A stretch of 45,340 nt of DNA, taken from positions 1 through 45,340 of the forward strand of contig DAHUXD010000006.1 in assembly GCA_027307335.1 (NCBI GenBank). Reading direction: 5' to 3'. A model generated the notes under the pieces. It saw nothing but the letters and a program-made list of their open reading frames with translations. It searched no databases and was not told where the DNA came from. The stretch's first letter is position 1, and every line of letters begins with the position of its first letter. A program made the position numbers and the translations under genes. Below are positions 1,817-35,706 of this stretch, in pieces. Origin of the DNA: Acidobacteriota bacterium (GTDB taxonomy: Bacteria; Acidobacteriota; Thermoanaerobaculia; UBA5066; Gp7-AA6).

Positions 1817-2437
1817 TCAGCGACGAGGAAGGGTCCGAAGGACCTTCTGGATGGCCTCGGGGTACGCCCGGTGCTCCTCCGCGAGGATCCGCGCCGACAG
1901 GGTCTCCTCGGTGTCGCCGGGTAAGACCGGGACCCTCCTCTGGAGGACGACCGGGCCCGTGTCCGTGCCCTCGTCGACGAAGTGGACCGTGCAGCCGGAC
2001 TCCTGCTCCCCCGACTCCAGCGCCCTTCTCTGCACGTGGAGCCCCGGGAACTTGGGCAGAAGGGCCGGGTGGATGTTGAGGATGCGACCCCTCCATCGCG
2101 CGACGAAACCGGCCGAAAGAATCCGCATGTAGCCCGCGAGGCAGACGAGCTCGACGCCGGCCGAGTCGAGGATCTTCTCGACCTGCGCCTCGTGCTCGCT
2201 CCGGGTCAGGCCGCCGCGGGGAATCGGGAATGCCGGCAGTCCGCGCTCGGCCGCGCGGTTCAAGCCCGGCGCGTCGGCGACGTCCGAGATGACGGCGACG
2301 ATCGTGGCATCGGGGATGCGGCCGTCCGCGATCGCGTCACAGATCGCGAGGAAGTTCGATCCGCGGCCGGAGAGGAGAATGCCGAGGCGGTATCGGGAGT
2401 CCCGGCGGTCGGATTCGGCGCCGTCGCCGGCGCTCAT
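1817..2437 (-). CDS. purN: phosphoribosylglycinamide formyltransferase PurN
   Basis: A 206-aa GAR transformylase that moves a formyl group from 10-formyl-THF to GAR in step 3 of de novo IMP synthesis. After a short polar extension come the phosphate-binding LLSGRGSNF (residues 21-29), the catalytic NIHPALLP (Asn121, His123) and DEGTDTGPV with Asp159, matching E. coli Asn106/His108/Asp144. The length is normal for the family. The ATG overlaps the purM stop as ATGA, so the start is set by translational coupling; the same frame stays open upstream through purM, but that part has no PurN homology. It is cytosolic and co-transcribed with purM. Confidence 0.95.
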   Translation of the reverse strand: MSAGDGAESDRRDSRYRLGILLSGRGSNFLAICDAIADGRIPDATIVAVISDVADAPGLNRAAERGLPAFPIPRGGLTRSEHEAQVEKILDSAGVELVCLAGYMRILSAGFVARWRGRILNIHPALLPKFPGLHVQRRALESGEQESGCTVHFVDEGTDTGPVVLQRRVPVLPGDTEETLSARILAEEHRAYPEAIQKVLRTLPRR

Positions 2438-3489
2438 CGCCCGGCCGGTTCGGGCTCGACCACGACGCGGCGCGATCCGCCGCTCTTCACGTTCCCGATC
2501 GCGAACCAGCGCTGCCCGGCGTCCTTCCAGGTCTGAACGACGCGGGCGAGGTCCGCCGGCGCGACGAAGACGACCATGCCGATCCCCATGTTGAAGACCC
2601 GGTGCATCTCCTCGAAGGAGACCGCGCCCTCGCGGGCGATGACCTCGAAGACGGGAGGCACGGTCCACGCGCCCGACCGGATCGTCACATCCAGATTCTC
2701 CGGAAGCACGCGCGGGATGTTGTCGTAAAAGCCGCCGCCCGTCAGGTGGGCCATGCCGTGCACGAGGTCGGCGTCGAGGAGCGGCTCCATCGCGCGCAGG
2801 TACGAGAGATGGGGATCGAGAAGCACGTCGCCGACGCTGCGGTCGTTGAGCTCCTTCAGGCGGTCCCCCGGCGTCTTCCCCATCGTGTCGAAGAAGACCT
2901 TGCGGGCGAGCGTGTAGCCGTTGGTCTGGAGCCCGACCGACGGGAGGCCGAGCGCGACGTCGCCGGCGGCGATGCGCGACCCATCCAGGATCTTCGCGCG
3001 GTCCACGACGCCCACGATCGTGCCGGCCACGTCGTATTCGCCGGAGGCGTAGAAGCCCGGCATCTCCGCCGTCTCGCCGCCGAGAAGCGCCGTGCCGTTC
3101 TCGCGACAGGCGCGGGCGATTCCCGCGATCACACCCTCGACCACGCCGGGTTCGACCTTGCCGGTCGCGATGTAGTCGAGAAAGAAGAGCGGCCGCGCGC
3201 CCTGGACGAGGATGTCGTTGACGCAGTGATTGACGAGATCGGCGCCGCACGTATCGTGGCGGCCCATCGTGATCGCGATCTTCAGCTTGGTGCCGACGCC
3301 GTCGGTCGAGCCGACCAGGACGGGTTCGCGATACGCGGAGAAGTCCGGCCGGAAGAGCCCGCCGAAGCCGCCGACGTCGCCGAGGACCCCGGGCGTGAAG
3401 GTCGAGCGGATCGCCGCCTTCGCGCGCGCGAGTGCCGCGGCTTTGGCGTCGATGTCGACGCCGGCGTCGGCGTAACGGGACTTTTCCAA
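2434..3489 (-). CDS. purM: phosphoribosylformylglycinamidine cyclo-ligase PurM
   Basis: AIR synthetase (351 aa), which closes FGAM to AIR with ATP in purine synthesis. It has the PurM/PurL fold signatures: GSTDGVGTKLKIA near residue 60, an NDI segment (HCVNDILVQGA), and GGETAEMPGFY. The start is a TTG at 3489; no ATG or GTG gives the conserved MEKSRYADAGVDID beginning. A TAGACT box ends 8 nt upstream of this TTG, so the mRNA may be nearly leaderless. It leads a two-gene operon with purN (4-bp overlap) and is divergent from the methyltransferase gene at 3584. Confidence 0.96.
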   Translation of the reverse strand: MEKSRYADAGVDIDAKAAALARAKAAIRSTFTPGVLGDVGGFGGLFRPDFSAYREPVLVGSTDGVGTKLKIAITMGRHDTCGADLVNHCVNDILVQGARPLFFLDYIATGKVEPGVVEGVIAGIARACRENGTALLGGETAEMPGFYASGEYDVAGTIVGVVDRAKILDGSRIAAGDVALGLPSVGLQTNGYTLARKVFFDTMGKTPGDRLKELNDRSVGDVLLDPHLSYLRAMEPLLDADLVHGMAHLTGGGFYDNIPRVLPENLDVTIRSGAWTVPPVFEVIAREGAVSFEEMHRVFNMGIGMVVFVAPADLARVVQTWKDAGQRWFAIGNVKSGGSRRVVVEPEPAGR

Positions 3490-3497
3490 CGCGACGC

Positions 3498-3503
3498 AGT
3501 CTA
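3498..3503 (-). promoter_or_regulatory. TAGACT -10-like box before purM
   Basis: TAGACT on the minus strand ends 8 nt before the TTG of purM, with no Shine-Dalgarno in between. The same hexamer sits at a similar distance before two other genes (3571-3576 and 19288-19293). I read it as a -10 element giving a leaderless or nearly leaderless transcript. No good -35 is visible. Confidence 0.4.
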
Positions 3504-3570
3504 CCTCGGCGCTCTCCCGGCGAACGACGCGCGGGAGCCGGATCCGCGGCGGTCACGATCCGACCGTGTG

Positions 3571-21967: not shown

Positions 21968-22939
21968 TCAGCGCGCGAGCTCGAGAACGGCGCGCCGGAC
22001 TCCGGCGACGACCTCCCCCATGCGTGCGTAGTCCAGCGTCTCGGGCGTGTCGTGCTCGGTGTGGTACCGCGGGTTCCGGTAGAAGGCGGTGTCGGTGATC
22101 ATGACGGCCGGCAGCCCGCGCCGCCAGAAGCTCGAGTGGTCGGACAGGTCGACGCCGGGCACGACTCCCGGCGCGTTGATCGACTCGACGGGCAGGTCGC
22201 TCGCCTCGCGCATCGCGCGCTTGACGCGGCGCACGATGCCGGCGCCCGGCAGGTTTCCCACGACGGCGATGAAGTTGCCGGTCGATGGATAGAGGAGCCG
22301 CAGCACGCCGAACGGCAGCTTCTGGCTCCCGGGCGCGTCCGAGAAACAGCCGAGCATCTCGAGACAGATCATTCCGCGGACCCGGCGGTTCGCCGAGACC
22401 AGGGACCGCGCGTACACGTCGCTCCCCATCCCGGACGTCGCGAAGTAAGGCGCCTCCTCGTTCGCGAACGCGACGAGCTCGACGCGCCGGGCGAGGGGCG
22501 CGTCGCGGAGGACGTCGGCCAGCTCGAGCAGCCCGCCGACCCCGCTCGCGTTGTCGTCGGCCCCGGGCATCCCCCCCGCGACGTCGTAGTGCGCGCCGAC
22601 CACGACCAGATCGCGGGTCTCCGGCCCGAACGCAGCGACAACGTTGACGTACTCCGCTCCGACAGCGGGGAACCGCTGCTCCGACACGGCGGCACCCGCG
22701 CCTTTCAGCTCCCCCGCGATCCAGATGGCCGCCCGCCGCATGTTCTCCGGGTGCCCACCGTCGCGCGGATGGAATCGCTCGACGAGCTCGCGCACCCGCC
22801 GCTCGATCCGCGCGGGATCGGGAGGTGGCCCCTCGGGGATCGCGCGAGTCCGCGCGATCAGGGGCTGGGTCAGCCATGCCGCGGCCGCCAGTACCGAGGC
22901 GACCGCCGCCAGGGTCCACATCAGAGTCGCGCCCCTCAC
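21968..22939 (-). CDS. M28 family zinc aminopeptidase
   Basis: About 323 aa. An N-terminal hydrophobic segment (WTLAAVASVLAAAAWL) serves as signal peptide or anchor, then a peptidase M28 domain. Metal and catalytic residues are in VVGAHYDVAGGMPGADDNASG (His, bridging Asp), FANEEAPYF (two Glu), ICLEMLG and the final His in YHTEHDTPETLDY. It should remove N-terminal residues from peptides outside the inner membrane. GTG 22939 overlaps the kinase stop (GTGA) and is preferred; ATG 22921 also leaves the signal intact. It is the last gene of the three-kinase operon, so kinase signalling and this peptidase are probably co-expressed. Confidence 0.85.
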   Translation of the reverse strand: MRGATLMWTLAAVASVLAAAAWLTQPLIARTRAIPEGPPPDPARIERRVRELVERFHPRDGGHPENMRRAAIWIAGELKGAGAAVSEQRFPAVGAEYVNVVAAFGPETRDLVVVGAHYDVAGGMPGADDNASGVGGLLELADVLRDAPLARRVELVAFANEEAPYFATSGMGSDVYARSLVSANRRVRGMICLEMLGCFSDAPGSQKLPFGVLRLLYPSTGNFIAVVGNLPGAGIVRRVKRAMREASDLPVESINAPGVVPGVDLSDHSSFWRRGLPAVMITDTAFYRNPRYHTEHDTPETLDYARMGEVVAGVRRAVLELAR

Positions 22940-25197
22940 GCGCGGAGGCCGACCCGCCGCAGGACATCCTCGAAACGGGAATCCGCGCGCAGCGGATCCG
23001 CGCGGGGATCGACGTCGAGCATGATCAGATTCCAGTCCCGTTCCCGGACCGCTCGATCCAGCGCCTGAAAGGCCCGCTCCGCATCCCCGAGCCACGCATG
23101 AACGAAGCACACGTGCACCTGCGAAACGTAGCTCTGCCGGGAGATCTCCTCGAGCTCACGCAGGACGGCATCGGCGTCCGTACGTCGACCCGCGGCCGCG
23201 CACGCGACGCCGAACGTCGCCAGGAAGTTGGTTCCGCGTCCCGATATCGTTCTTCCTTCCTCGAGGGCACGAGCGTGGTCGCCCTTGGAGAGGTAAGCCC
23301 ACGTCAGCACGTTGCGGACCGGAACGAAGCTCGGGTCCATCTCGATCGCCGCTTCGAGCCTCTCGACGGCTTCGTCGAAACGGCGGGAAAGGAGGCGCGT
23401 CCAGCTGGCCGTCGTCTTGATCGGAAGCGATAAAGGATCGAGCTCCTCGGCGCGCCCCACTTCGGCGAACGACTCGTCGAAGCGGCTCACCGCCGCCAGA
23501 AGGACCGCGTGGTACTGGCGCGCGTTGGCGTACGAAGGGCCCGCGGCGATCGCCTTGAGGTAGTCCGCTTCGGCCCCCGGCACGTCCCAGTCGTAGTAGA
23601 AGCGCGCGACCCCGCGAGCGGCGTATGCCTCAGGGATCGTCGCGTCGAGCTCGAGAGCCCGGTTCGCTGCGGCCTTGGCCTTCGGGAAGGATTCGTTCGG
23701 CGATCGGTAGCCATAGAAGCCTTGAAAGTCGTAGCACTCGGCGATTCCGGCGTAGGCGAGCGCGTACTCGGGATCCTCCTCGATGGCCTGCTGGAAGTGC
23801 TCGATCGCCTTCCGGAGGCTCTCCGCCGACCTCTTCTCGAGGAAGAATCGGCCCCGCAGGTAGAGGCGATGCGCGGCGGGACTCTCGGTCGATCGGCGCG
23901 CCAGCCGATCGACCTCCTCCCCCGTGATCTTCAGCCTCAGCTTCTCGGAGATCTCACGCGAGATGTCCGCTTCGAGGGCGAGCAGGTCCTCCAGCCGTCG
24001 GTTGTAGGTCTCGCCCCAGATCTGCGACCCGTCCCGGGCATCGACGAGCTCGGCCTTGACCACCAGGCTCTCCCCGCGATGCAGCACCCGTCCCGTCAGG
24101 ACGGCGCCCACCCGGAGCTCCGTCCCGACCAGGCGGGGATCCACGTCCACGCCCCGATAACGCGACAGAGTGCTGCGCGCCATGACGCGAAGATTCGGAA
24201 GCCGGGACAGGGTCTGAATGATGGTGTCCGCGATCCCGTCGGACAGGTACTCCGCGTCGGCATCGCCGCTCGCGTTGGCAAACGGCAGCACCGCCAGCGA
24301 CTCGAGCGGACGCCGATGCGAACCGGAGGAGAGCGGCATCTCGCCGCTCGGCGTCCTCAAGAGCTCCTTGAGGGCGAACGCCAGGTCGTGCGCCGACTGG
24401 AACCGCGTCTGCGGGTTCTTCTCCAGGCTCCTCAGGATCAGGTGCCGAAGTCCCAACGGCAGATTCTGGACCGGAGCCTCCGCCGGGCCCTCGTTCAACA
24501 CGGCAGCCATCGTGTCGGCGGCCGTGCGCCGATGAAAGGCACGCTGTCCCGAAGCCATCTCGTAGAGGAGGCAGCCGAATGCAAAGAGATCCGTCCGCGC
24601 GTCCGTGGGCTCTCCCCGGACCTGCTCGGGTGACATGTAGCCGACCGTTCCCAGGACCGTGCCCGGCATCGTTCCCGTCTGCGTCGGCGCCGCCGTCGCG
24701 TCATCCGCGGAGATGGGCTGATCGCGTCGTGCCAGTCCGAAGTCGAGGATCTTGACGCGATCGTCGGTTGTCAGGAAGAGATTCTGAGGCTTCAGATCCC
24801 GGTGAATGATTCCCTTCACGTGAGCGGCCGAGAGGCCTTCGGCGACCGCGATCGAGATCTCGGCGGCGCGGCGCCACGGGAGCGGGCCCTGGAGCAGGCG
24901 GTCCGCGACGGTCTCACCTTCAAGCAGCTCGGTCACCGCGTAGGCAACGGGGCCCTCCCTTCCGAAGTCGTGGATGGCGAGAATGTTCGGGTGTGATAGC
25001 GAAGCGACGACCTTCGCCTCGCGCTCGAAGCGCGCCAGGGCTCCCGCATCCTGTGCCAGACGCTCCGGAAGGACCTTGATCGCCACTTCCCGATCGAGTC
25101 GGGTGTCCCGCGCCCGATACACCTCCCCCATTCCGCCCGCCCCGAGCTTCGCGAGGACCTCGTAGGGACCGAGGCGGGTGCCGGCGGAAAGCGTCAA
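22936..25197 (-). CDS. Ser/Thr protein kinase with TolB/FlgO-like and TPR domains (copy 3)
   Basis: 753 aa. A Hanks-type kinase: GAGGMGEVYRARD loop, Lys41 (AIKVLPE), HRDLKPQN, DFGLARRD, and GYMSPEQV as the activation segment end. A serine-rich linker (SSGSHRRP) leads to a TolB/FlgO-like domain (SLAVLPFANASGDADAEYLSDGIAD) that also occurs in adenylate-cyclase-type regulators, then TPRs to the end. There is no transmembrane helix between kinase and sensor part, unlike the first copy. The start is TTG 25197, overlapping the preceding kinase stop as TTGA and giving MTLSAGTRLGPY as in the paralogues; the frame stays open upstream, but that is not homologous. Probable autophosphorylating cytosolic kinase; targets unknown. 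Confidence 0.9.
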   Translation of the reverse strand: MTLSAGTRLGPYEVLAKLGAGGMGEVYRARDTRLDREVAIKVLPERLAQDAGALARFEREAKVVASLSHPNILAIHDFGREGPVAYAVTELLEGETVADRLLQGPLPWRRAAEISIAVAEGLSAAHVKGIIHRDLKPQNLFLTTDDRVKILDFGLARRDQPISADDATAAPTQTGTMPGTVLGTVGYMSPEQVRGEPTDARTDLFAFGCLLYEMASGQRAFHRRTAADTMAAVLNEGPAEAPVQNLPLGLRHLILRSLEKNPQTRFQSAHDLAFALKELLRTPSGEMPLSSGSHRRPLESLAVLPFANASGDADAEYLSDGIADTIIQTLSRLPNLRVMARSTLSRYRGVDVDPRLVGTELRVGAVLTGRVLHRGESLVVKAELVDARDGSQIWGETYNRRLEDLLALEADISREISEKLRLKITGEEVDRLARRSTESPAAHRLYLRGRFFLEKRSAESLRKAIEHFQQAIEEDPEYALAYAGIAECYDFQGFYGYRSPNESFPKAKAAANRALELDATIPEAYAARGVARFYYDWDVPGAEADYLKAIAAGPSYANARQYHAVLLAAVSRFDESFAEVGRAEELDPLSLPIKTTASWTRLLSRRFDEAVERLEAAIEMDPSFVPVRNVLTWAYLSKGDHARALEEGRTISGRGTNFLATFGVACAAAGRRTDADAVLRELEEISRQSYVSQVHVCFVHAWLGDAERAFQALDRAVRERDWNLIMLDVDPRADPLRADSRFEDVLRRVGLRA

Positions 25198-27467
25198 AGG
25201 CCCACCCTGCGCAGAAGGTCCTTGAACCTCGGATCTCCACGGAGGGGATCGAACTGCGGCTCCCACGGAAGGAACGCCACTTCGTGGGCGCGGATGGCGA
25301 CCGCCTTCTCCAGAGCGTCGAAAGCGGCGTCATGCTCGCCAAGCGCGGTGTGGAGGAGTGCGAAGGAGTAGGGGGAAACGAATCGCTCCTTCGTCTCGCG
25401 GAGCACCGTCAGGATCGTCTCGGCCTCGGATCGGCGGCCTGAGGTAACGTACGCGCAACCGAGCTCGGCATTGACCAGAGGGTTGCCTTCGGTACGTCGC
25501 AGGAGGTCGCTGAACTCCTCGACGGCCTTGGAGTGCTCGCCAGTCTGAAGGTACACGTACCCCAAGAAGAGGTGAGCCGGCAGGAAGCCCGGATCCATCT
25601 CGAGCGTCTTTTGAAGCTGACTCTGCGCCTCATCGTAGCGCCCGGCCATGTGGTTCCCGTAGCCCAGCGAGGCGCTGATAATCAGCGAGAGAGGGTCGAG
25701 ATCCAGGGCGAGACGCAATTCCGCAATGGCCTCATCGAAGCGACGCGGCGGCAACAACGCGTTCGCAAGGTACTGGTGAGCCGTCGGGTAGTTCGGGTCG
25801 AGCTCGATGGCGCGACGGAACTCCCGCTCCGCGCCATCCCAGTCCCAGTCGTAGTACAGAAGGGCATAGCCCAACGCCGTGCGGGCGACCGCCAGGTCAC
25901 CGTCGAGCTCCAGGGCTCTGCGCGCCGCGGCCTTGGCCTTGGGGAATGACTCGGCCGGAGCCTCGTAGTTGTAGAAGCCGAGGTTGTTGTAGCAGTCGGC
26001 CATGCCGGCGTACGCGAGCGCGTACTCGGGATCCTCTTCGATGGCCAGGCGGAAGCACTCGATTCCCTTGCGAAGAGCATCGGGCGAGCGCTTGTTCCAG
26101 AAAAAGCGCCCCTTCAGGAAGAGGCGATGGGCCTCGGTGCTCTCGGTCTCGCGCTTCGAACGCCGGTGCTCCTCCTCGCTCGACAGCTTCAACCGGAGCG
26201 TCTCCGAGATCTCGCGCGAGATCTCCTCTTCGATCGCAAGGATATCGGACAGCTTTCGGCTGTAGTTCTCTCCCCAGAGCTGGGAACCGTCGCGGCCGTC
26301 CACGAGCTCGGTCTTGACGATCAACGTCTCTCCGCGATGGAACACCCGGCCGGTCAGGACGGCGCGCACACCGAGCTCCCGGCCGACGTGCTGCGGGTCG
26401 GCGTCGCGGCCCTTGTAGCGCGAGATCGTGCTCCGCGCCATGACGCGCAGGCCGGGCAGCTTCGAAAGGCTGTGGATGATGCTCTCGGCGATCCCGTCCG
26501 ACAGGTACTCCGCGTCCGGATCGCCGCCCGCGTTGGCGAACGGCAGCACGGCCATGGACTCGATCGGGCGCCGGTGCGACCCCGAGGAGGCCGGGGGCGC
26601 GATCGTCGCGCCTCGCAAGACCTCTTTCAACGCGAATTCAAAGTCGCGCGCCGACTGAAACCGCAGCTCGGGATTCTTCTCGAGGCACCGTCCGATGATC
26701 GTCGAAAGACCCGGTGGCGGACCGGACTCCGCGCCGACGTCCGTCAGGGCAGGCGGCTCCTCGTTGAGGATCGCCGCCATCGTCTCCGCCGGCGTGCGCC
26801 GCCGGAATGCTCGGTTGCCGGTCAACATCTCGTGCAGAACGCAGCCCAGCGAGAAGAGGTCCGTTCTCCAGTCGGCCGGGTCCCCGAGAACCTGCTCGGG
26901 CGACATGTAGCCGATGGTGCCAAGAATCGTTCCCGGGCTCGTTCCCTCTTCGGTCATCGCCTGGGTGACGCTCTCGCCCGACGAGGTTTGCTCGCGGCGC
27001 GCCAGACCGAAGTCGAGAATCTTGACGCGGTCTTCGCGCGTCAGGAACAGGTTCTGCGGTTTCAAGTCTCGATGGACGATCCCTTTCGCATGCGCGGCGG
27101 ACAGTCCGTCGGCGATCGCGATCGCGATCTCGGCGGCGTGGCGCCACGGGATCGGCCCGCGCAGCAGACGCTCGCTCATCGATTCTCCTTCGAGGAGCTC
27201 GAGGACGACGTAGGACGTGTCTCCGTGTCGGTTGAAGTCGTGGATCGCGAGGATGTTCGGATGCGACAAGGCGGCGACCGCCTTGGCCTCGCGCTCGAAA
27301 CGCGATAGCGCCACCGGATCCGCAGCCAGACGCTCCGGCAGCACCTTGATCGCGATTTCGCGGTCCAGCCGCGTGTCCCTGGCCCGATACACCTCCCCCA
27401 TCCCGCCCGCACCCAGCGGAGCGAGGATCTCGTAGGGGCCGAGGCGCGATCCGCCCGAAAGCGGCAT
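25194..27467 (-). CDS. Ser/Thr protein kinase with TolB/FlgO-like and TPR domains (copy 2)
   Basis: 757 aa, same domain order as the next gene and very similar to it. Kinase motifs: GAGGMGEVYRARD (19-31), Lys41, HRDLKPQN, DFGLARRE, GYMSPEQV. The linker again has SSGSHRRP and no membrane helix. The sensor-like domain begins MAVLPFANAGGDPDAEYLSDGIAE. The TPR region (YALAYAGMADCYNNLGF, AEREFRRAIELDPNYPTAHQYL, KTLEMDPGFLPAHLFLG) is the best preserved of the three. Its ATG overlaps the upstream stop (TAATG), and its TGA overlaps the next start (TTGA). Shared hinge and sequence mark copies 2 and 3 as the most recent duplication. Confidence 0.92.
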   Translation of the reverse strand: MPLSGGSRLGPYEILAPLGAGGMGEVYRARDTRLDREIAIKVLPERLAADPVALSRFEREAKAVAALSHPNILAIHDFNRHGDTSYVVLELLEGESMSERLLRGPIPWRHAAEIAIAIADGLSAAHAKGIVHRDLKPQNLFLTREDRVKILDFGLARREQTSSGESVTQAMTEEGTSPGTILGTIGYMSPEQVLGDPADWRTDLFSLGCVLHEMLTGNRAFRRRTPAETMAAILNEEPPALTDVGAESGPPPGLSTIIGRCLEKNPELRFQSARDFEFALKEVLRGATIAPPASSGSHRRPIESMAVLPFANAGGDPDAEYLSDGIAESIIHSLSKLPGLRVMARSTISRYKGRDADPQHVGRELGVRAVLTGRVFHRGETLIVKTELVDGRDGSQLWGENYSRKLSDILAIEEEISREISETLRLKLSSEEEHRRSKRETESTEAHRLFLKGRFFWNKRSPDALRKGIECFRLAIEEDPEYALAYAGMADCYNNLGFYNYEAPAESFPKAKAAARRALELDGDLAVARTALGYALLYYDWDWDGAEREFRRAIELDPNYPTAHQYLANALLPPRRFDEAIAELRLALDLDPLSLIISASLGYGNHMAGRYDEAQSQLQKTLEMDPGFLPAHLFLGYVYLQTGEHSKAVEEFSDLLRRTEGNPLVNAELGCAYVTSGRRSEAETILTVLRETKERFVSPYSFALLHTALGEHDAAFDALEKAVAIRAHEVAFLPWEPQFDPLRGDPRFKDLLRRVGL

Positions 27468-29884
27468 TACGCTTGAGGTCCGGTCGCCGGCAGACCGACT
27501 TTGCGCACGATCTCCCGGAACCTCGGCTCCTTTCTCACGAGGTCGAGCCGCGGATCGTTGTTGAGCCAGAGAAGCCAGTGCGAGCGCTCCTCATACGCCT
27601 TGTCGAGCTCGTCGAGAGTCCGCGCCTTATCCCCGAGACCGGCATAGACGAGGGCGATCGCGTAGCTCGATGCGAATTTTCCCTGGCTCGCTCGCGCCGC
27701 AAATTCCTGCAAGATCGCGTCGGCCTTCTCCGGCTTGCCCCACTGTCCGTACAAGAACCCGATCGCTGCCAGCATGGGCGTCCACGGCCGCAAGGCGGGG
27801 ACCTTTTCGAATTCAGCTTCGGCCTGATCGAACTTTTTCTGAGACGTATAGATTCGGCCGAGCCAGAAGTGGCCGGCCGGGAAGTTTGGATCCATTTCCA
27901 GGGCCGTTTCGATGGCCCGCAGGGCGGCGTCGGTCTGGCTGCTGTAGTACAGCATGTACCCCTGATCCGTCTGGATCGCCACCGAGAGCGGGTCGAGTCG
28001 CTGAGCGACCGCGACTTCCGCCAGCGAGTCCTTCGGCCGCCCGGTCGCCATCAGGAGGTAGGCGTACCACTGGTGCCCGACCGCGTAACTCGGATTGAGC
28101 TCGATTGCGCGGCGGTACTCCTTTTCGGCCAGCGGAAAATTCCAGTCGTAGTACATGACGACGTATCCGAGCGAAGCGTGGGCCTCGGCCAGGCGGGGAT
28201 CGAGCTCCAGGGCCTTCTGCGCGGCGGCCTTCGCCCGGGGAAACGAGTCCGCCGGCGAAAGATAGTTGTTGTAGCCCAGCTGCGAGTAGCAATCCGACAT
28301 GCCCGCGTAGGCCGGCGCGTACGTCGGGTCGGCATCGATCGACTCCTGGAAGAGACGGATCGCCTCGCGCAGATTCGCTTCTTTGCGCTTGCCGTATTCG
28401 TTCCGGCCGCGCACATAAGCGTCGTATGCGGCGGGCAGCACTGGACGCGTCGCGGCGGCGCGGCCCGCCTTCCCCTCCGGCGTCAACTTCGCGCCGACCT
28501 CGCGCGCGATCGCCCGCGCGATCTCGTCCTGCAAGGCCAGGATGTCTTGCGCTTCGCGCTGGAACGAGTTGGCCCAGACGTGCTTGTCCGAGGCGGCGTC
28601 GATCAACTGCGCCGTGATCTTGACGTGCTGGCTGTCGCGCACGACTGACCCTTCCACCACGTACTCCACGCCCAGCGTCTTCGCGACTTCGGGAATCGTC
28701 TTGCCCTTGAGGGGCATGACGGATGTCCGGGACGTCACGCGCAGGTTCGCGATCTTCGCGAGATCGGTCGTGATCTCTTCCGTCATCGCGTCGACGAAAT
28801 AGTCCTGCCCCGGATCACCGGTCATGTTCGCGAGGGGAAGGACGGCGAGCGTCCGCGCCGATGGCGCTCCGCCCGAACGGAACAGACGGTCGCGAAGGCC
28901 GCCCGGGTCGACGATCAGCAGGAGCACCAGGGCCGCAGCGGCCGCAGCCGCAGGCGGCCACCATCGGCGCCCGCGGGCCGAAGGAGTCGGCACCGCGGTG
29001 GGCGCCGGGGGCGAAACGGCAGAAACCGATGCGGACGCTCCCGAGATCTCCTTCAAGGCAAAGGCGAGGTCCCGCGCAGTCTGGAATCTCTCGTCCCGGT
29101 TCTTCTCGAGACACCGTGCGACGACCCGGTCGAGCCCCGCGGGAAGCGGCGCGGCCGAACCGGCGATTTCGGGAGGCTGGTCCCGCAGAATCGCGGCCAT
29201 CGTCTGCCCCGGGGTGCCGCCACCGAAGGCGCGCCGCCCGGCCAGCATCTCGTAGAGAACGCATCCGAGCGAGAAGATGTCGCTGCGCGCGTCGGCGACT
29301 TCTCCGCTGACCTGCTCGGGCGACATGTATCCGACGGTTCCCAGGACGGTCCCGGCCTCGGTCTGAACCGCCGCCGTCGGCGCGGAGGTGGCGTCCTCAG
29401 GCGGCACGTCGGTGCGAGCCAGGCCGAAGTCCAGGATCTTGACGAGCCCGCCCGAGGTCAGAAAGACATTTTCGGGCTTGAGGTCTCGATGCACGATTCC
29501 CCTGGCGTGCGCCGCGGCCAGACCGTCGGCGATGGCGATACCGATGTCGACGGCCTTGCGCCAGGGCAGGCGCTCGCGCGAGATCCGCTCCCGTAATGTT
29601 TCGCCGTCCAGGAGCTCGGTGACCGTGTACCGCACGCCGCCCTGCTCGCCGAGATCGTGGATCGCGAGGATATTCGGGTGCGAGAGAGCCGCCACCGCCT
29701 TCGCCTCCCGCTCGAACCGCGCGAGAGCCCTGGGGTCCGCAGCGAGTCGCTCGGGAAGCACCTTGATCGCTACCTCCCGATCCAGCCGCGTGTCCTTCGC
29801 TCGATACACCTCTCCCATTCCGCCCGCGCCCAGCGGCGTGAGAACCTCATAGGGACCGAGGCGGGCCCCCGCCAAAAGGGACAT
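27467..29884 (-). CDS. transmembrane Ser/Thr protein kinase with TolB/FlgO-like and TPR domains (copy 1)
   Basis: 805 aa. The kinase domain is about 10-275 with GAGGMGEVYRAKD, Lys41, catalytic Asp134 in HRDLKPEN, Asp152 in DFG and GYMSPEQV. A Pro/Ala linker and one membrane helix follow (about 307-325, WWPPAAAAAAALVLLLIV). Beyond the membrane lie the TolB/FlgO-like domain (LAVLPLANMTGDPGQDYFVDAMTEEITTDL) and several TPRs. This is the classic bacterial receptor-kinase layout: cytosolic kinase, external sensor. The start is ATG 29884. It is first of three coupled kinase genes and lies 41 bp after the barrel gene. The FHA regulator upstream is a candidate phosphorylation target. Confidence 0.92.
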   Translation of the reverse strand: MSLLAGARLGPYEVLTPLGAGGMGEVYRAKDTRLDREVAIKVLPERLAADPRALARFEREAKAVAALSHPNILAIHDLGEQGGVRYTVTELLDGETLRERISRERLPWRKAVDIGIAIADGLAAAHARGIVHRDLKPENVFLTSGGLVKILDFGLARTDVPPEDATSAPTAAVQTEAGTVLGTVGYMSPEQVSGEVADARSDIFSLGCVLYEMLAGRRAFGGGTPGQTMAAILRDQPPEIAGSAAPLPAGLDRVVARCLEKNRDERFQTARDLAFALKEISGASASVSAVSPPAPTAVPTPSARGRRWWPPAAAAAAALVLLLIVDPGGLRDRLFRSGGAPSARTLAVLPLANMTGDPGQDYFVDAMTEEITTDLAKIANLRVTSRTSVMPLKGKTIPEVAKTLGVEYVVEGSVVRDSQHVKITAQLIDAASDKHVWANSFQREAQDILALQDEIARAIAREVGAKLTPEGKAGRAAATRPVLPAAYDAYVRGRNEYGKRKEANLREAIRLFQESIDADPTYAPAYAGMSDCYSQLGYNNYLSPADSFPRAKAAAQKALELDPRLAEAHASLGYVVMYYDWNFPLAEKEYRRAIELNPSYAVGHQWYAYLLMATGRPKDSLAEVAVAQRLDPLSVAIQTDQGYMLYYSSQTDAALRAIETALEMDPNFPAGHFWLGRIYTSQKKFDQAEAEFEKVPALRPWTPMLAAIGFLYGQWGKPEKADAILQEFAARASQGKFASSYAIALVYAGLGDKARTLDELDKAYEERSHWLLWLNNDPRLDLVRKEPRFREIVRKVGLPATGPQA

Positions 29885-29925: not shown

Positions 29926-31041
29926 CTAGAAGCGTCGACCGAAGCTCGCGATGACGAGAAAGGGCACGAAGTCCGAACCGACGTGCCGGTGGAGAGACTC
30001 GTCGAGGGTGCTGTCCAGCTTCTTCGCATAGACCCGAACGGGAACGCTCACGGACGCGGTGTTGCGGCCGAACGTGTACGACAGCCCCGGCTCGAAGAAG
30101 ATCTCGTAGCCAGGCCGCCGCCAGTACAGGTCGGTCCCACCGATGATGTCCTTCACCATGACGCCGTTGATCAGGCCGCCGGCGGTCAGGACAAGGTCGT
30201 GGTGCACCGGCAGGAGATAACCCGCTCCCAGCCGAGCCGAATAGGTGTCGGGGACCGCCCGCAGCGGACCGGGCGATCCGTTCGGCGTGGGCTGATGCAC
30301 CCCGCTGGTGCCCGTCAGGCTCATGCCGTAGTAGCCGGAACCGTACGCCATGAACGGGCCGCTGCCGAGGGCCGCCGTGCCCTGCGCCTGGAAGAGCAGC
30401 TCCCATCCGCCGTTGCCGAGCTGCGCCCCTTCGTCGATCGGCGCAGTGGCCCCACCGACGAAGGTACCGGTGACGTCGTCTTTCCCCGTCGGCGCCTTGA
30501 TTCCAAGGCCGACGGAGCCGGAAACTGCGGACGGCAGGGTCGGGTCGTTCAGCCAGTACTCCGCCTGGAGCGAAACGTCGCCGATACCCCCGGCGCCGTA
30601 GTGGTAGAGCTGGTGGTCGGCCTGCGTCCCGTAGACGACGTCCAGGGAGCCCGTCAGAAACGGAACCGTCAGATCCATCTGTAGACGATTCGTCACACCG
30701 TAAAGAACGTCGACATCGAAGATATTCACTGTCCTTACTGGCGGCGTCCCGAACAGCGCTCCGAGCGCGGCCGGGGGCGGCGCCGGAATCGTTCCCGACG
30801 GCGGATGGTCGACGCGTTGGCTGCCGAAAAACCACTGGTCGGTGTGCGCGTACTGGTAGGAAATCTGCGCCTGCCAGATCCCCTTGCCCAGGAACGGCTG
30901 ATTCTGCAGGCCCAGACTGGGCTCTGTGAATCGGATCGGCTGTCAGCCCTGGCCGGATGCGTGACGAGTTGCGGAGAACAGGATCGCCAGGGACGCGAGC
31001 AAGACCCACCGGGAGGAGCGAGAACGCGGGCATCCGTTCAC
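29926..31041 (-). pseudogene. outer-membrane beta-barrel protein gene interrupted by in-frame TGA
   Basis: A GTG at 31041 with AGGAGGT 5 nt upstream starts a typical signal peptide (RWVLLASLAILFSA...ASGQG) that stops after 32 codons at a TGA (30943-30945). The same frame continues without further stops for 338 codons: QPIRFTEPSLGLQNQPFLGKG, QISYQYAHTDQWFFGSQRVDHP, VNIFDVDVLYGVTNRLQMDLTVPF, then alternating amphipathic strands ending VPFLVIASFGRRF. The C-terminal Phe and strand pattern indicate an outer-membrane barrel of the putative-transporter kind. An internal GTG (30729) would give a protein with no signal peptide. So this is a recent nonsense mutation, a sequencing error or recoding. It lies upstream of and likely co-transcribed with the three kinases. 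Confidence 0.8.
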
Positions 31042-31046
31042 CACAC

Positions 31047-31053
31047 ACCTCCT
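31047..31053 (-). promoter_or_regulatory. strong Shine-Dalgarno of the interrupted barrel gene
   Basis: AGGAGGT on the minus strand is 5 nt before GTG 31041. It supports that GTG as the original start and shows that the signal-peptide part before the TGA is still set up for translation. Confidence 0.7.
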
Positions 31054-31239
31054 CACCAGAGACTGTCAGGTCTTCTTCACACAGTCGCAGCGAAATCCCG
31101 GGGAATCTCCGGCTTTTCTGGACGGTGACGCAGTCCTGGTCCCTCGGGCCGCGGGACGGCGGCTCTCGAGTTGCCAGGCACCAGGACAATTCGCATCGCC
31201 GATATGGGGTCTCGTGGAGACGGAGCCCCTATGGGATCG

Positions 31240-31289: not shown

Positions 31290-31949
31290 TCAGTCCGGCT
31301 CGACGCTCGTGACCGTCGACTGTGGCGTTTCGAACAGGCGCACGAGCAACGGCACGGATCCGATCCTGACCGTGTCGCCATCGGAAAGCGGCATCGGCGC
31401 GTGGACCCCCGCTTCGCCGAGGAAGGTGCCGTTCTTGCTGCCGAGGTCCTCGACCGTCGCACCCGTGTCCCCCACGATGATCCGCGCGTGCCGGCGGGAG
31501 ACGCTCGGGTCGTCGAGATGAACGGCCGCTCCCGGATCCCGGCCGATGATCGTCTCGCCCGGCTCGAGAGCGATCCGGGTCTTGCCTCGGAGCAGCCAGA
31601 CGGCCAGACCGCTGCGGCCGACGCCGACCACACGGTCACGCTCCTCGGCCGCCTCCCCCGAGAACGCGTAGCCGACGCGGTGCACCGTGCGCACGAAGCG
31701 GGACTGGTGCGCTTCGTCGCCGATGGCACCGCGGACCTCCGCGAGCACGCTCGTCAGCGTACCGTCGGAGACGAAAATGCCCGGCCAGAGTTTCTCGTGG
31801 ATCTCGGCCTTCGGGACCACGCGGGGCCGGTTGTGGATCAGGAGCTCCAGAAACTGAAATGCCTTCGGCTGGAGGTGCACTTCGGCGCCGCGGACGACGA
31901 GCTGCCGCGTCTCCGAATCGAGCACGCATTCCCCGAACCGAAGTCGCAT
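31290..31949 (-). CDS. winged-helix DNA-binding protein with FHA domain
   Basis: 219 aa. The N-terminal half (1-95) is an OmpR-type Trans_reg_C winged helix: FGECVLDSETRQL, LQPKAFQFLELL, EIHEKLWPGIFVSDGTLTSVLAEVRGAIGD, FVRTVHRVGYAF. The C-terminal half (about 125-210) is an FHA domain with IIGRDPGAAVHLDDPSVSRRHARI and LGSKNGTFLG, holding the Arg, Ser, His and Asn-Gly residues that bind phosphothreonine. There is no receiver domain. The layout recalls mycobacterial EmbR, which is controlled by the kinase PknH, and three Ser/Thr kinases lie directly downstream. I infer a kinase-controlled transcription factor. The start is ATG 31949; the 5' leader has a CCCGG...CCGGG hairpin shared with the decayed paralogue at 17339-17593. 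Confidence 0.92.
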   Translation of the reverse strand: MRLRFGECVLDSETRQLVVRGAEVHLQPKAFQFLELLIHNRPRVVPKAEIHEKLWPGIFVSDGTLTSVLAEVRGAIGDEAHQSRFVRTVHRVGYAFSGEAAEERDRVVGVGRSGLAVWLLRGKTRIALEPGETIIGRDPGAAVHLDDPSVSRRHARIIVGDTGATVEDLGSKNGTFLGEAGVHAPMPLSDGDTVRIGSVPLLVRLFETPQSTVTSVEPD

Positions 31950-32705: not shown

Positions 32706-34919
32706 CTAGAGAACGTCCGCGGACTCGAGCGCGCGGGCGAAGGCGGTGCGCCAGAGTTCGGTGAGCGTGGCGACGGGCTCGTCGATGACGGCACGGCTGC
32801 CGGCCGAGATCGTCAGCCGGTCGCCGCCCACCCAGCCCGCGGCGGCGAACGGGACGCCCTTTTCTTTCGCGAGAGCCCGTGCGGCGGCCTCGTGCTCCGG
32901 CGCGAACGACACGACCGCGCGGCCGGTCGTCTCGCCGAACAGAAACGCCGACATCCGCACACCCGGTTCGAGCGAGAGAGTGGCCCCGAGGCCGCCCTGC
33001 ATCGCGCACTCCGCGAGCGCCACGGCAAGCCCGCCGTCGGAGACGTCGTGCATCGACGCGACGATCCCGCGCTCCGCGAGCGTCGCGAGAAGGTCGACCA
33101 GCCGCTTCTCCGCGTCGAGGTCCACCTCGGGACACGGGCCCTCGTCGCGCCCGCGCACGGTCCGCAGGAACTCCGAGGCGCCGAGCTCGTCGCGCGTGTC
33201 GCCGAGGACCGCGACGAGGTCGCCCGCCCGGCGGAACGCGACGCGCACGTGCTTGCCGACGTCCTCCATCAGCCCGACCATGCCGACGGTGGGCGTCGGA
33301 GGGATCGCGCGGCCGTCGGTCTCGTTGTAGAGCGAGACGTTGCCGGAGACGACCGGCACCTCGAGCGCGCGGCAGGCGTCGGCGATGCCGCGCACCGCCG
33401 CCTCGAACTGCGCCATGACCTCGGGCTTCTCGGGATTTCCGAAGTTCAGGCAGTCGGTGATCGCGACCGGCCGCGCGCCGGTCGCGGCGATCGAGCGCGC
33501 CGCCTCGGCGACCGCGATCGCGCCGCCGCGGTAGGGATCGAACGCGCAGAAGAACGGGTTGACGTCGCTCTTCATCGCGATCCCCTTCGTCGTGCCCTTC
33601 ACGCGCATGACCGCCGCGTCGCCGCCGGGCCTCTGCACCGTGTTCGACTGGACCATGTGGTCGTACTGCGTCCAGATCCACGACTTCTCCGCCACGTTCG
33701 GCGAGGCGAGGATCTGCTTCAGGCACGCGGCGTAGTCGGGGGGCTCGGGCTCCTCCCTCCAGCGAAAGGGACCGGCGCCCGGCGCGAGCGGCGTGCGCGG
33801 GCGGTCGTAGACGGGCGCGCGGTCGGACAGCGGCGCGGCGGGCAGGTCCGCGACGATCCGGCCCTCGAAGAAGAGGACGACGCGCCCGGAGTCCGTGACG
33901 CGGCCGATCTCGACGGCGTCGAGCTCCCACTTGTGGAAGATCGCGAGGACCTCGTCGAGCCGGTCGCGCCGCGCGACGAGGAGCATGCGCTCCTGCGACT
34001 CCGACAGCATGATCTCGTAGGGCGTCATGCCGGTCTCGCGCACCGGCACCTTCGAGAGGTCGATCTCGACGCCCGAGCCCGCGCGCCCCGCCATCTCGAA
34101 CGACGACGAGGTCAGGCCCGCGGCGCCCATGTCCTGGATGCCGACGACGGCGTCGGTCCGGAACAGCTCGAGGCACGCCTCCATCAGGAGCTTCTCGGTG
34201 AACGGATCGCCGACCTGCACGGTCGGGCGCTTCTGGCTCGCCTCGTCGGCCGCGAACTCCTCGGAGGCCATCGTCGCGCCGTGGATGCCGTCGCGGCCCG
34301 TCTTCGAGCCGACGTAGACGACGGGATTGCCCGCGCCCTCGGCGCGCCCGAGGAAGATGCGGTCGCTCGGCACGATCCCGACGTTCATCACGTTGACGAG
34401 GATGTTGCCGTCGTAGCCCTTGTGGAACGTCGTCTCGCCGCCGAGCGTCGGGATGCCGATGCAGTTGCCGTAACCCGCGATGCCGCGGACGACGCCGTCG
34501 ACGAGGTGCTTCATGCGCGGCGCGTCGAGGCGGCCGAACCGCAGCGAGTTCAGCGACGCCATCGGCCGCGCGCCCATCGTGAAGACGTCGCGCAGGATCC
34601 CGCCGACGCCGGTCGCCGCTCCCTGGTACGGCTCGATGAACGACGGGTGGTTGTGGGACTCCATCTTGAACGCGACCGCGAGGCCGCCGCCGATGTCGAC
34701 GACGCCCGCGTTCTCGCCCGGCCCCTGGATGACGCGCGGCCCCGTCGTGGGGAACTTCTTCAGGTGGATGCGCGACGACTTGTACGAGCAGTGCTCGCTC
34801 CACATCGCGGAGAAGATGCCGAGCTCGACGAGGTTCGGCTCGCGGCCGAGGATCTCCTGGATGCGGGCGTACTCCTCGTCCGAGAGGTTGTGCTCCCGGA
34901 TCACTTCTTCGGTGATCAC
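32706..34919 (-). CDS. purL: phosphoribosylformylglycinamidine synthase subunit PurL
   Basis: 737 aa, the small-PurL class that works with PurS and PurQ to convert FGAR to FGAM using ATP and glutamine-derived ammonia. Motifs: [14 protein letters not shown] (about 37-50), [57 protein letters not shown], and in the second half [14 protein letters not shown] and [12 protein letters not shown]. There is no fused glutaminase, consistent with separate purQ. The start is ATG 34919. A REP-like double hairpin fills the 91-bp gap to purQ, which could uncouple its expression from the upstream genes. Confidence 0.96.
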
Positions 34920-35010: not shown

Positions 35011-35706
35011 TCATCGCGCGGCCATCGCCGCCACGGCGGACGCGAACATCTTCACGCCCGCGTCGTTGCCGAGGAGCGCCTCGGCGCAGCGGTCGGGGTG
35101 CGGCATCAGGCCGACGACGTTGCCCTCGCGGTTGCAGATGCCGGCGATGTTTCGGGCGGCGCCGTTCGGGTTCGCCGCGTCGGTCGGACGCCCCTCCCGA
35201 TCGCAGTAGCGGAAGACCACTCGCCCGTCGCGCTCGAGCAGGTCGAGCGTCTCGGGAGGCGCGGTGTAGTTGCCCTCCATGTGCCCGATCGGCATCGTGA
35301 CGAGGCTTCCCTTCGAATACAGCGACGTGAACGGCGTCGCGTCGTTCTCGACTCGCATCGTGACGTCGCGGCAGACGTAGCGGAGCCCCCGGTTGATCTG
35401 CATCGCGCCCGGAAGGAGCCCCGCCTCGAGCAGGACCTGGAAGCCGTTGCAGATGCCGAGCACCGGTCCGCCTTTCTTCGCGAACGCGGCGACGCTCTCC
35501 ATGACCGGCGAGAAGCGCGCGAGCGCGCCCGCGCGCAGATAGTCGCCGTAGGCGAAGCCTCCCGGCAGGATGACGGCGTCCGCGCCCTTCAGGTCCGTGT
35601 CGTGGTGCCAGATGTAGTCGGCTTCGCAGCCGAGGAGGTCCTTCGCGACGTGGTGGCAGTCCTCGTCGCAGTTCGAGCCGGGGAACACGACGATGCCGAA
35701 GCGCAT
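35011..35706 (-). CDS. purQ: phosphoribosylformylglycinamidine synthase glutaminase subunit PurQ
   Basis: 231 aa, class I glutamine amidotransferase that feeds ammonia to PurL. The nucleophile Cys86 lies in [11 protein letters not shown], the oxyanion region is [15 protein letters not shown], and the His of the triad lies in [24 protein letters not shown] at the N-terminus is typical. Start ATG 35706 is unambiguous. It is 27 bp after purS in the same leftward operon. Confidence 0.96.

Follow-up and report, generated by a model that had tools for sequence, protein, structure and literature searches.

The outer-membrane channels that most resemble the protein described in this study are those of COG4313, represented by Pput2725 of Pseudomonas putida (PDB accession number 4rl8; Pfam PF13557, Phenol_MetA_deg), which is likewise a 12-stranded barrel with a segment ahead of strand 1. 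In the 4rl8 structure, the lumen is occluded by the N-terminal ~14 residues, which fold into it (PMC4493636). The amyloid-secretion channel FapF (PDB accession number 5o65) has the same barrel fold, and the profile of the family studied here matches it with E = 3e-12. In FadL-type channels, substrate binding and gating involve an N-terminal segment that lies within the barrel, and mutants of residue 3 of Escherichia coli FadL are among the structures listed.

Bacterial selenocysteine (Sec) is inserted by SelB, which is bound to a SECIS hairpin and delivers Sec-tRNA to UGA, and the classic sign of Sec is an invariant column in which some sequences have TGA and the others Cys. A 2026 review lists 119 prokaryotic selenoprotein families and subfamilies; for the outer membrane, it names the GSU2204/MtrB-PioB barrel and a TonB-dependent receptor, and the family described below is not in its table (PMC13188914). 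Judged by name, this family is not one of the nine newly reported in the deep-Sep paper either (PMC12013277), no description of it was found in the openly licensed papers searched, and NCBIfam release 20 (June 2026) contains no model for it.

Organization of the gene

The window, i.e., the whole 45,340-nucleotide stretch of Acidobacteriota DNA that was analyzed, carries the gene on its minus strand, and its features are listed in Table 1. As shown there, a Shine-Dalgarno sequence precedes the GTG at 31041, from which 32 codons (VNGCPRSRSSRWVLLASLAILFSATRHASGQG) lead to the TGA at 30945..30943 (minus strand); thereafter 338 residues follow in frame to the TAG at 29928..29926, with zero further stops. 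The family profile match spans the whole gene with one TGA inside. This is the arrangement given in the original prediction: the ribosome-binding site, start, signal peptide and 32 codons up to TGA were confirmed in the sequence, and the 338-residue frame without another stop was confirmed by translation. The TGA is very probably a Sec codon, as judged by sequence comparison, because it recurs at the same codon and is swapped only with Cys, is followed by a hairpin, and is accompanied by sel genes, by co-occurrence with SelB and by repeated exchanges on the tree. The gene looks broken, or would be started downstream without its signal peptide by a standard gene caller; read with Sec, it would be an intact selenoprotein gene.

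Table 1. Features of the predicted selenoprotein gene and its neighbors in the window
Feature	Coordinates	Strand	Remarks
Predicted selenoprotein gene	29926..31041	-	371-residue precursor including Sec33; stop TAG; translated with TGA = U
Alternative in-frame start GTG	31044	-	
Shine-Dalgarno GAGGAGG	31048..31054	-	6 nt upstream of GTG start 31041
Predicted Sec codon UGA	30943..30945	-	precursor residue 33, predicted mature residue 3; Sec/Cys invariant, 85 homologues
Signal peptide	30952..31041	-	from sequence; predicted signal peptidase I cleavage after ..HASG
12-stranded COG4313/FapF-like outer-membrane barrel	29929..30876	-	AlphaFold2 and structural alignment
Bacterial-type SECIS hairpin	30900..30932	-	arms 30918-30926 and 30906-30914, loop 30915-30917; family-conserved
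Ser/Thr kinase with TPR repeats	27467..29884	-	starts 42 bp past barrel stop codon; Pfam PF00069 and TPR; neighbor conservation
Second Ser/Thr kinase-TPR protein	25194..27467	-	
Third Ser/Thr kinase-TPR protein	22936..25266	-	
Upstream winged-helix (Trans_reg_C)-FHA regulator	31290..31949	-	

Barrel, N-terminal tail and export

AlphaFold2 predicts a β-barrel, with a pLDDT of 82.5 in the window protein and 90.1 in the mature homologue from genome G073; residues 56-67 of the window protein form the first strand. The best structural match is the COG4313 channel 4rl8 (Z-score = 24.3 over 260 residues; 24.1 in a second comparison), followed by FapF (Z-score = 21-23) and, more weakly, by FadL-type channels (Z-score of about 13). 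The barrel is thus the outer-membrane barrel that had been predicted (Z-scores of 24.3 with 4rl8 and 22.9 with FapF), and its 12 strands are those of the 4rl8 type that characterizes COG4313. Three homologues exceed the PF13557 cut-off of 22 (P0003, 28.5; L022, 24.4; L053, 23.8), and the search with this model gave no match for the window protein and most of the other members tested. A flexible tail of ~20 residues lies ahead of the barrel in the models; it is placed with low confidence, so the position of Sec in a plug is proposed by analogy.

At the signal-peptide junction, A, G or S at position -3 and Q or H at position -2 are found in 85 of 85 members read. It is conceivable that the Sec/Cys residue is lipidated and anchors the channel as an outer-membrane lipoprotein, as the residue lies just past the signal peptide, with G or S before it, and some outer-membrane channels carry an N-terminal lipid. 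We regard lipidation as improbable: the -3 position is never the L/V/I of a lipobox in any of the 85 members, the Q or H at -2 is a further point against it, a signal peptidase I site of the form A-x-A|Q-G fits better, and we know of no lipidated Sec.

Besides the residue at this site, 17 of the 24 Sec forms in the first set contain no other Cys after it, which favors a lone selenolate, as ligand or nucleophile, in those proteins. A second Cys occurs within 40 residues in 43/61 Cys forms, usually 8-9 residues on, and many Cys forms possibly have a Cys pair, as far as can be judged from sequence.

Family members and the Sec/Cys site

Searching 101 genomes (that of the window and 100 relatives) yielded three homologues outside the window's genome. 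The homologue in G073 is 34% identical and has TGA at the identical codon (..AAGQG*VLIRQTAP..), and Cys stands at the TGA position in G022 (..ASGQSCILTRIDSP..) and G095 (..SAQSCILTRIDSP..). A profile of four members, applied to the whole class, found genes with TGA inside in G000, G073, G141 (two copies) and G142; weak matches from this search (L028-L039 and L042) were taken as other barrels and left out. The same profile retrieved 80 loci from GTDB contigs, from phyla that include Acidobacteriota, Gemmatimonadota, Verrucomicrobiota, Planctomycetota, Bacteroidota and Pseudomonadota. A single-protein search over the GTDB contigs gave no match, and it was the four-row alignment that revealed the family; plasmid searches for the family gave no match either, nor did two other genomes of the window's own taxonomic family.

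In this first set, from which three fragments without the site were excluded, the site could be read in 24 distinct TGA genes and 61 Cys genes, and no other residue occurred there. Another 18 loci with a readable TGA came from a phylum search; L130 and L131 duplicate L115 and L083, and the 16 remaining loci bring the total to at least 40 distinct TGA genes. Comparison of the codon among relatives, as proposed in the original prediction, gave TGA or Cys in every homologue with a readable site, which is more than chance would produce, and, as expected of a bacterial selenoprotein, the in-frame UGA stands where homologues encode Cys. TGA homologues come from Acidobacteriota, Gemmatimonadota, Verrucomicrobiota and one Planctomycetota metagenome-assembled genome (MAG), and the Cys homologues (~60) mainly from Bacteroidota and Verrucomicrobiota, with some from Acidobacteriota. 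The motif around the site is [AGS]-[QH]-[GS]-[C/U]-x3-R, with R in 81/85; an Acidobacteriota group initially missed by the motif has QGC..AH, i.e., again Cys, in its readable members.

On a tree of 82 rows, at least five exchanges between Sec and Cys are required, three of which are forced by well-supported branches; the window copy lies on an unusually long branch (2.5 changes per column) and may have been acquired by transfer, or the gene may have been lost in other lineages. Two Sec copies are present in G141 (L025 and L040), and one copy with TGA and one without it are found in each of G214, G313 and G156 (L053 and L078), i.e., the two forms can coexist. Three records (L059, L074 and L093) are titled Akkermansia muciniphila; their genomes range from 2.7 to 7.3 Mb and differ in sequence, and these MAG names look doubtful.

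SECIS hairpin

Each of the 24 TGA genes in the first set has a hairpin 3' of the TGA in the same register (a pairing sum of 52, counted from the base after TGA); the other registers tested do not stand out. The apical loop is ~26 nt past the TGA codon and reads GUU, GUC or GUG in most genes. A hairpin directly 3' of UGA with G/U in its apical loop is what a bacterial SECIS element looks like. The mean number of in-register pairs over nine positions is 7.42 in TGA genes vs 3.52 in Cys homologues. When the same peptides were recoded synonymously at each gene's own codon usage, 140 ± 5 pairs were obtained (maximum 157 in 2000 trials) against 178 observed in the TGA genes, and the Cys genes fit their synonymous null. 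The phylum-search set exceeds its null more modestly (137 vs 123.5 ± 3.8). Both sides have changed in seven of the nine pairs, and none of 500 shuffles reached the covariation score.

A covariance model built from the 24 genes detected each of the 18 TGA loci from the phylum search (E <= 2.1e-5), 16 of which are outside the training set, and none of 10 Cys loci. It matches the window hairpin with E = 1.5e-8, a value that is not independent because the window gene is in the training set; across the whole window genome, the family model gave no second match beyond the barrel gene. Folding of the window hairpin is moderately more stable than that of shuffled sequences (z = -1.2 over 66 nt and -2.35 over 48 nt); since local folding energy by itself is weak evidence, we rely on the register, the covariation and the synonymous null. 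Remnants of the hairpin in Cys genes nested within Sec clades (3-5 of nine pairs) are not convincing.

These results bear on the three explanations offered in the original prediction, i.e., a nonsense mutation, a base-call error or readthrough. A recent nonsense mutation, which would leave a fresh pseudogene or no exported barrel, accounts for a lone in-frame TGA in an otherwise open frame; it is very improbable, given that the hairpin is under selection and that four phyla contain at least 40 distinct homologues with the same TGA, among them open barrels that share little identity with one another. Readthrough was the right kind of explanation, in the form of programmed Sec insertion rather than leaky termination.

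Selenocysteine machinery

The genome of the window encodes SelA (458 bits), SelD (373 bits) and SelB (324 bits), all above the NCBIfam cut-offs, and a tRNA-Sec with a UCA anticodon, so that the complete set of SelA, SelB, SelD and tRNA-Sec expected of a host of bacterial selenoproteins is present. SelB above the cut-off is found in 17/18 Sec-form vs 8/30 Cys-only genomes (p = 4e-6) and, in Acidobacteriota, in 20/23 Sec-form vs 3/16 Cys-only genomes (p = 3e-5), the two genome sets having at least two genomes in common. The three Sec-form Acidobacteriota without a SelB hit are fragmented or incomplete assemblies (G141, 1250 contigs; G413, 950 contigs; G452, 75% complete).

An open frame downstream would also result if UGA were read as an ordinary amino acid, by Trp recoding or by leaky near-cognate decoding. 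In the window, TGA is the normal stop of PurQ, two kinases and the FHA regulator, which shows that UGA is not Trp in this genome; moreover, the homologues carry Cys and never Trp, and both the SECIS element and the sel genes are present. We therefore consider decoding as an ordinary amino acid very unlikely as well. A base-call or assembly error at a single base can practically be dismissed, because TGA stands at this codon in independent assemblies from many projects, in at least 40 homologues of four phyla and next to a conserved hairpin. Equally negligible is a true start farther downstream (e.g., the GTG at 30729, where an ORF finder gives 29926..30729) with a signal-peptide frame that arose by chance: such a protein would lose the signal peptide, the first strand and the N-terminal motif that every member shares. 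Orthologues starting at 30729 were named in the original prediction as a finding that would refute it; the orthologues instead begin upstream, at a signal peptide, and retain [AGS]-[QH]-[GS]-[C/U].

Neighboring genes

Three kinase-TPR genes lie in tandem in the window (22936-29884). Kinases downstream of the barrel gene had been noted in the original prediction; this was correct and proved relevant. A regulator with a TPR region is found next to or close to the barrel gene in 16/21 Sec loci vs 1/57 Cys loci (p = 2e-11, a value that treats loci as independent and ignores kinship and the per-genome frequency of TPR regulator genes), often <60 bp from the Sec gene and in varying orientation; the single Cys locus, L055, groups with the Sec clade. 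The output domain is a nucleotide cyclase in L050, L053, L069 and L081, a winged-helix Trans_reg_C in L043, L044 and L073, a BTAD domain in L046, L047 and L048, and a Ser/Thr kinase in the window and, by its sequence, in L089. L100 is also among the loci with a TPR protein beside the Sec barrel. A description of these neighbors as kinases was too narrow: the TPR region is the common part, and the N-terminal output domain varies. In the second Sec clade, neighboring regulators are absent or were not seen in most members. Many clusters in the neighbor screen were antisense artifacts of the barrel gene and were discarded. None of the conserved neighbors found is a fap gene.

Two genes often follow the Cys gene in Bacteroidota, one encoding a second barrel-like protein that lacks a Pfam match and the other a PAP2-superfamily enzyme of ~510 amino acids (L051, L052, L057, L064, L067, L085, L092, L099 and L119). 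In G095, the Cys-form barrel is followed by a thioredoxin-like gene of the TlpA/ResA type with a WCLPC motif (L004, 850-1488, minus strand), a possible redox partner. Purine-synthesis genes are also present in the window, namely, PurQ (35011-35706), a formyl-transferase domain (1820-3556) and a probable PurL (32706-34919), the last of which, having a related fold, is also hit by the profile of SelD.

Proposed mechanism and function

In the mechanism that we propose, SelB on the SECIS hairpin would deliver Sec-tRNA to the UGA of the barrel gene, and the protein would be exported and cleaved by signal peptidase I after ..ASG. The mature protein would then begin with Gln-Gly-Sec, followed by the flexible tail of ~20 residues and the 12-stranded barrel of the COG4313/FapF type. 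The earlier view that the barrel would lack export does not hold, since Sec connects the signal peptide and the barrel within a single protein. If the COG4313 crystal structure is taken as a guide, the tail may reach the lumen from the periplasm and fold upwards inside it, and the selenol would then lie at or near a channel-blocking plug.

As the most likely function, although at somewhat less than even odds, we tentatively suggest that a lone selenolate on the plug of an uptake channel might serve as a substrate site or a chemically gated hatch by binding a soft metal, a metalloid, or a small molecule that is electrophilic or oxidized. A redox gate of the disulfide type, for which the second Cys 8-9 residues on in many Cys homologues can be cited, is the next best function and a somewhat doubtful one. 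Within one clade, genetic linkage connects the channel with TPR regulators whose output domains change, so the state of the channel or its substrate may, about as likely as not, act on a signalling response. A selenium-based envelope sensor, in which the lone selenolate at the tip of the plug gates or loads the channel and, in that clade, reports to an output-swapped TPR regulator, would combine these elements and is, as a whole, rather unlikely. Cys forms occur in cultured Belliella, Algoriphagus, Flectobacillus and Thiorhodococcus, so the role of a reactive chalcogen on a channel plug is directly testable, and the annotation of at least 40 genes from phyla of soil, sediment and freshwater can now be put right.

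Comparison with known channels and selenoproteins

The family is almost certainly, on the sequence comparisons made here, a selenoprotein family absent from the lists checked, and its Sec form spans four phyla. The proteins covered by the NCBIfam models NF041027 (the GSU2204 MtrB/PioB-type barrel) and NF049945 (the FCYXU TonB-dependent receptor) likewise have Sec in a predicted outer-membrane β-barrel, whereas the present family differs from both in size and in Sec context; neither model matched at E <= 1 in 10 family members. With the NCBIfam model of FapF (NF058560), the score is 12.1 bits, far from the cut-off of 700. In contrast to 4rl8, for which no such residue has been described, the family has an invariant Cys/Sec at the predicted mature residue 3, and the Sec would be encoded by UGA. 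E. coli FadL has 14 strands and Phe at residue 3, whereas the family has 12 strands and Sec/Cys at the predicted residue 3. The family would thus add to the selenoproteins one outside the usual thioredoxin-like fold, in which Sec is predicted to be the third residue of a mature outer-membrane channel.
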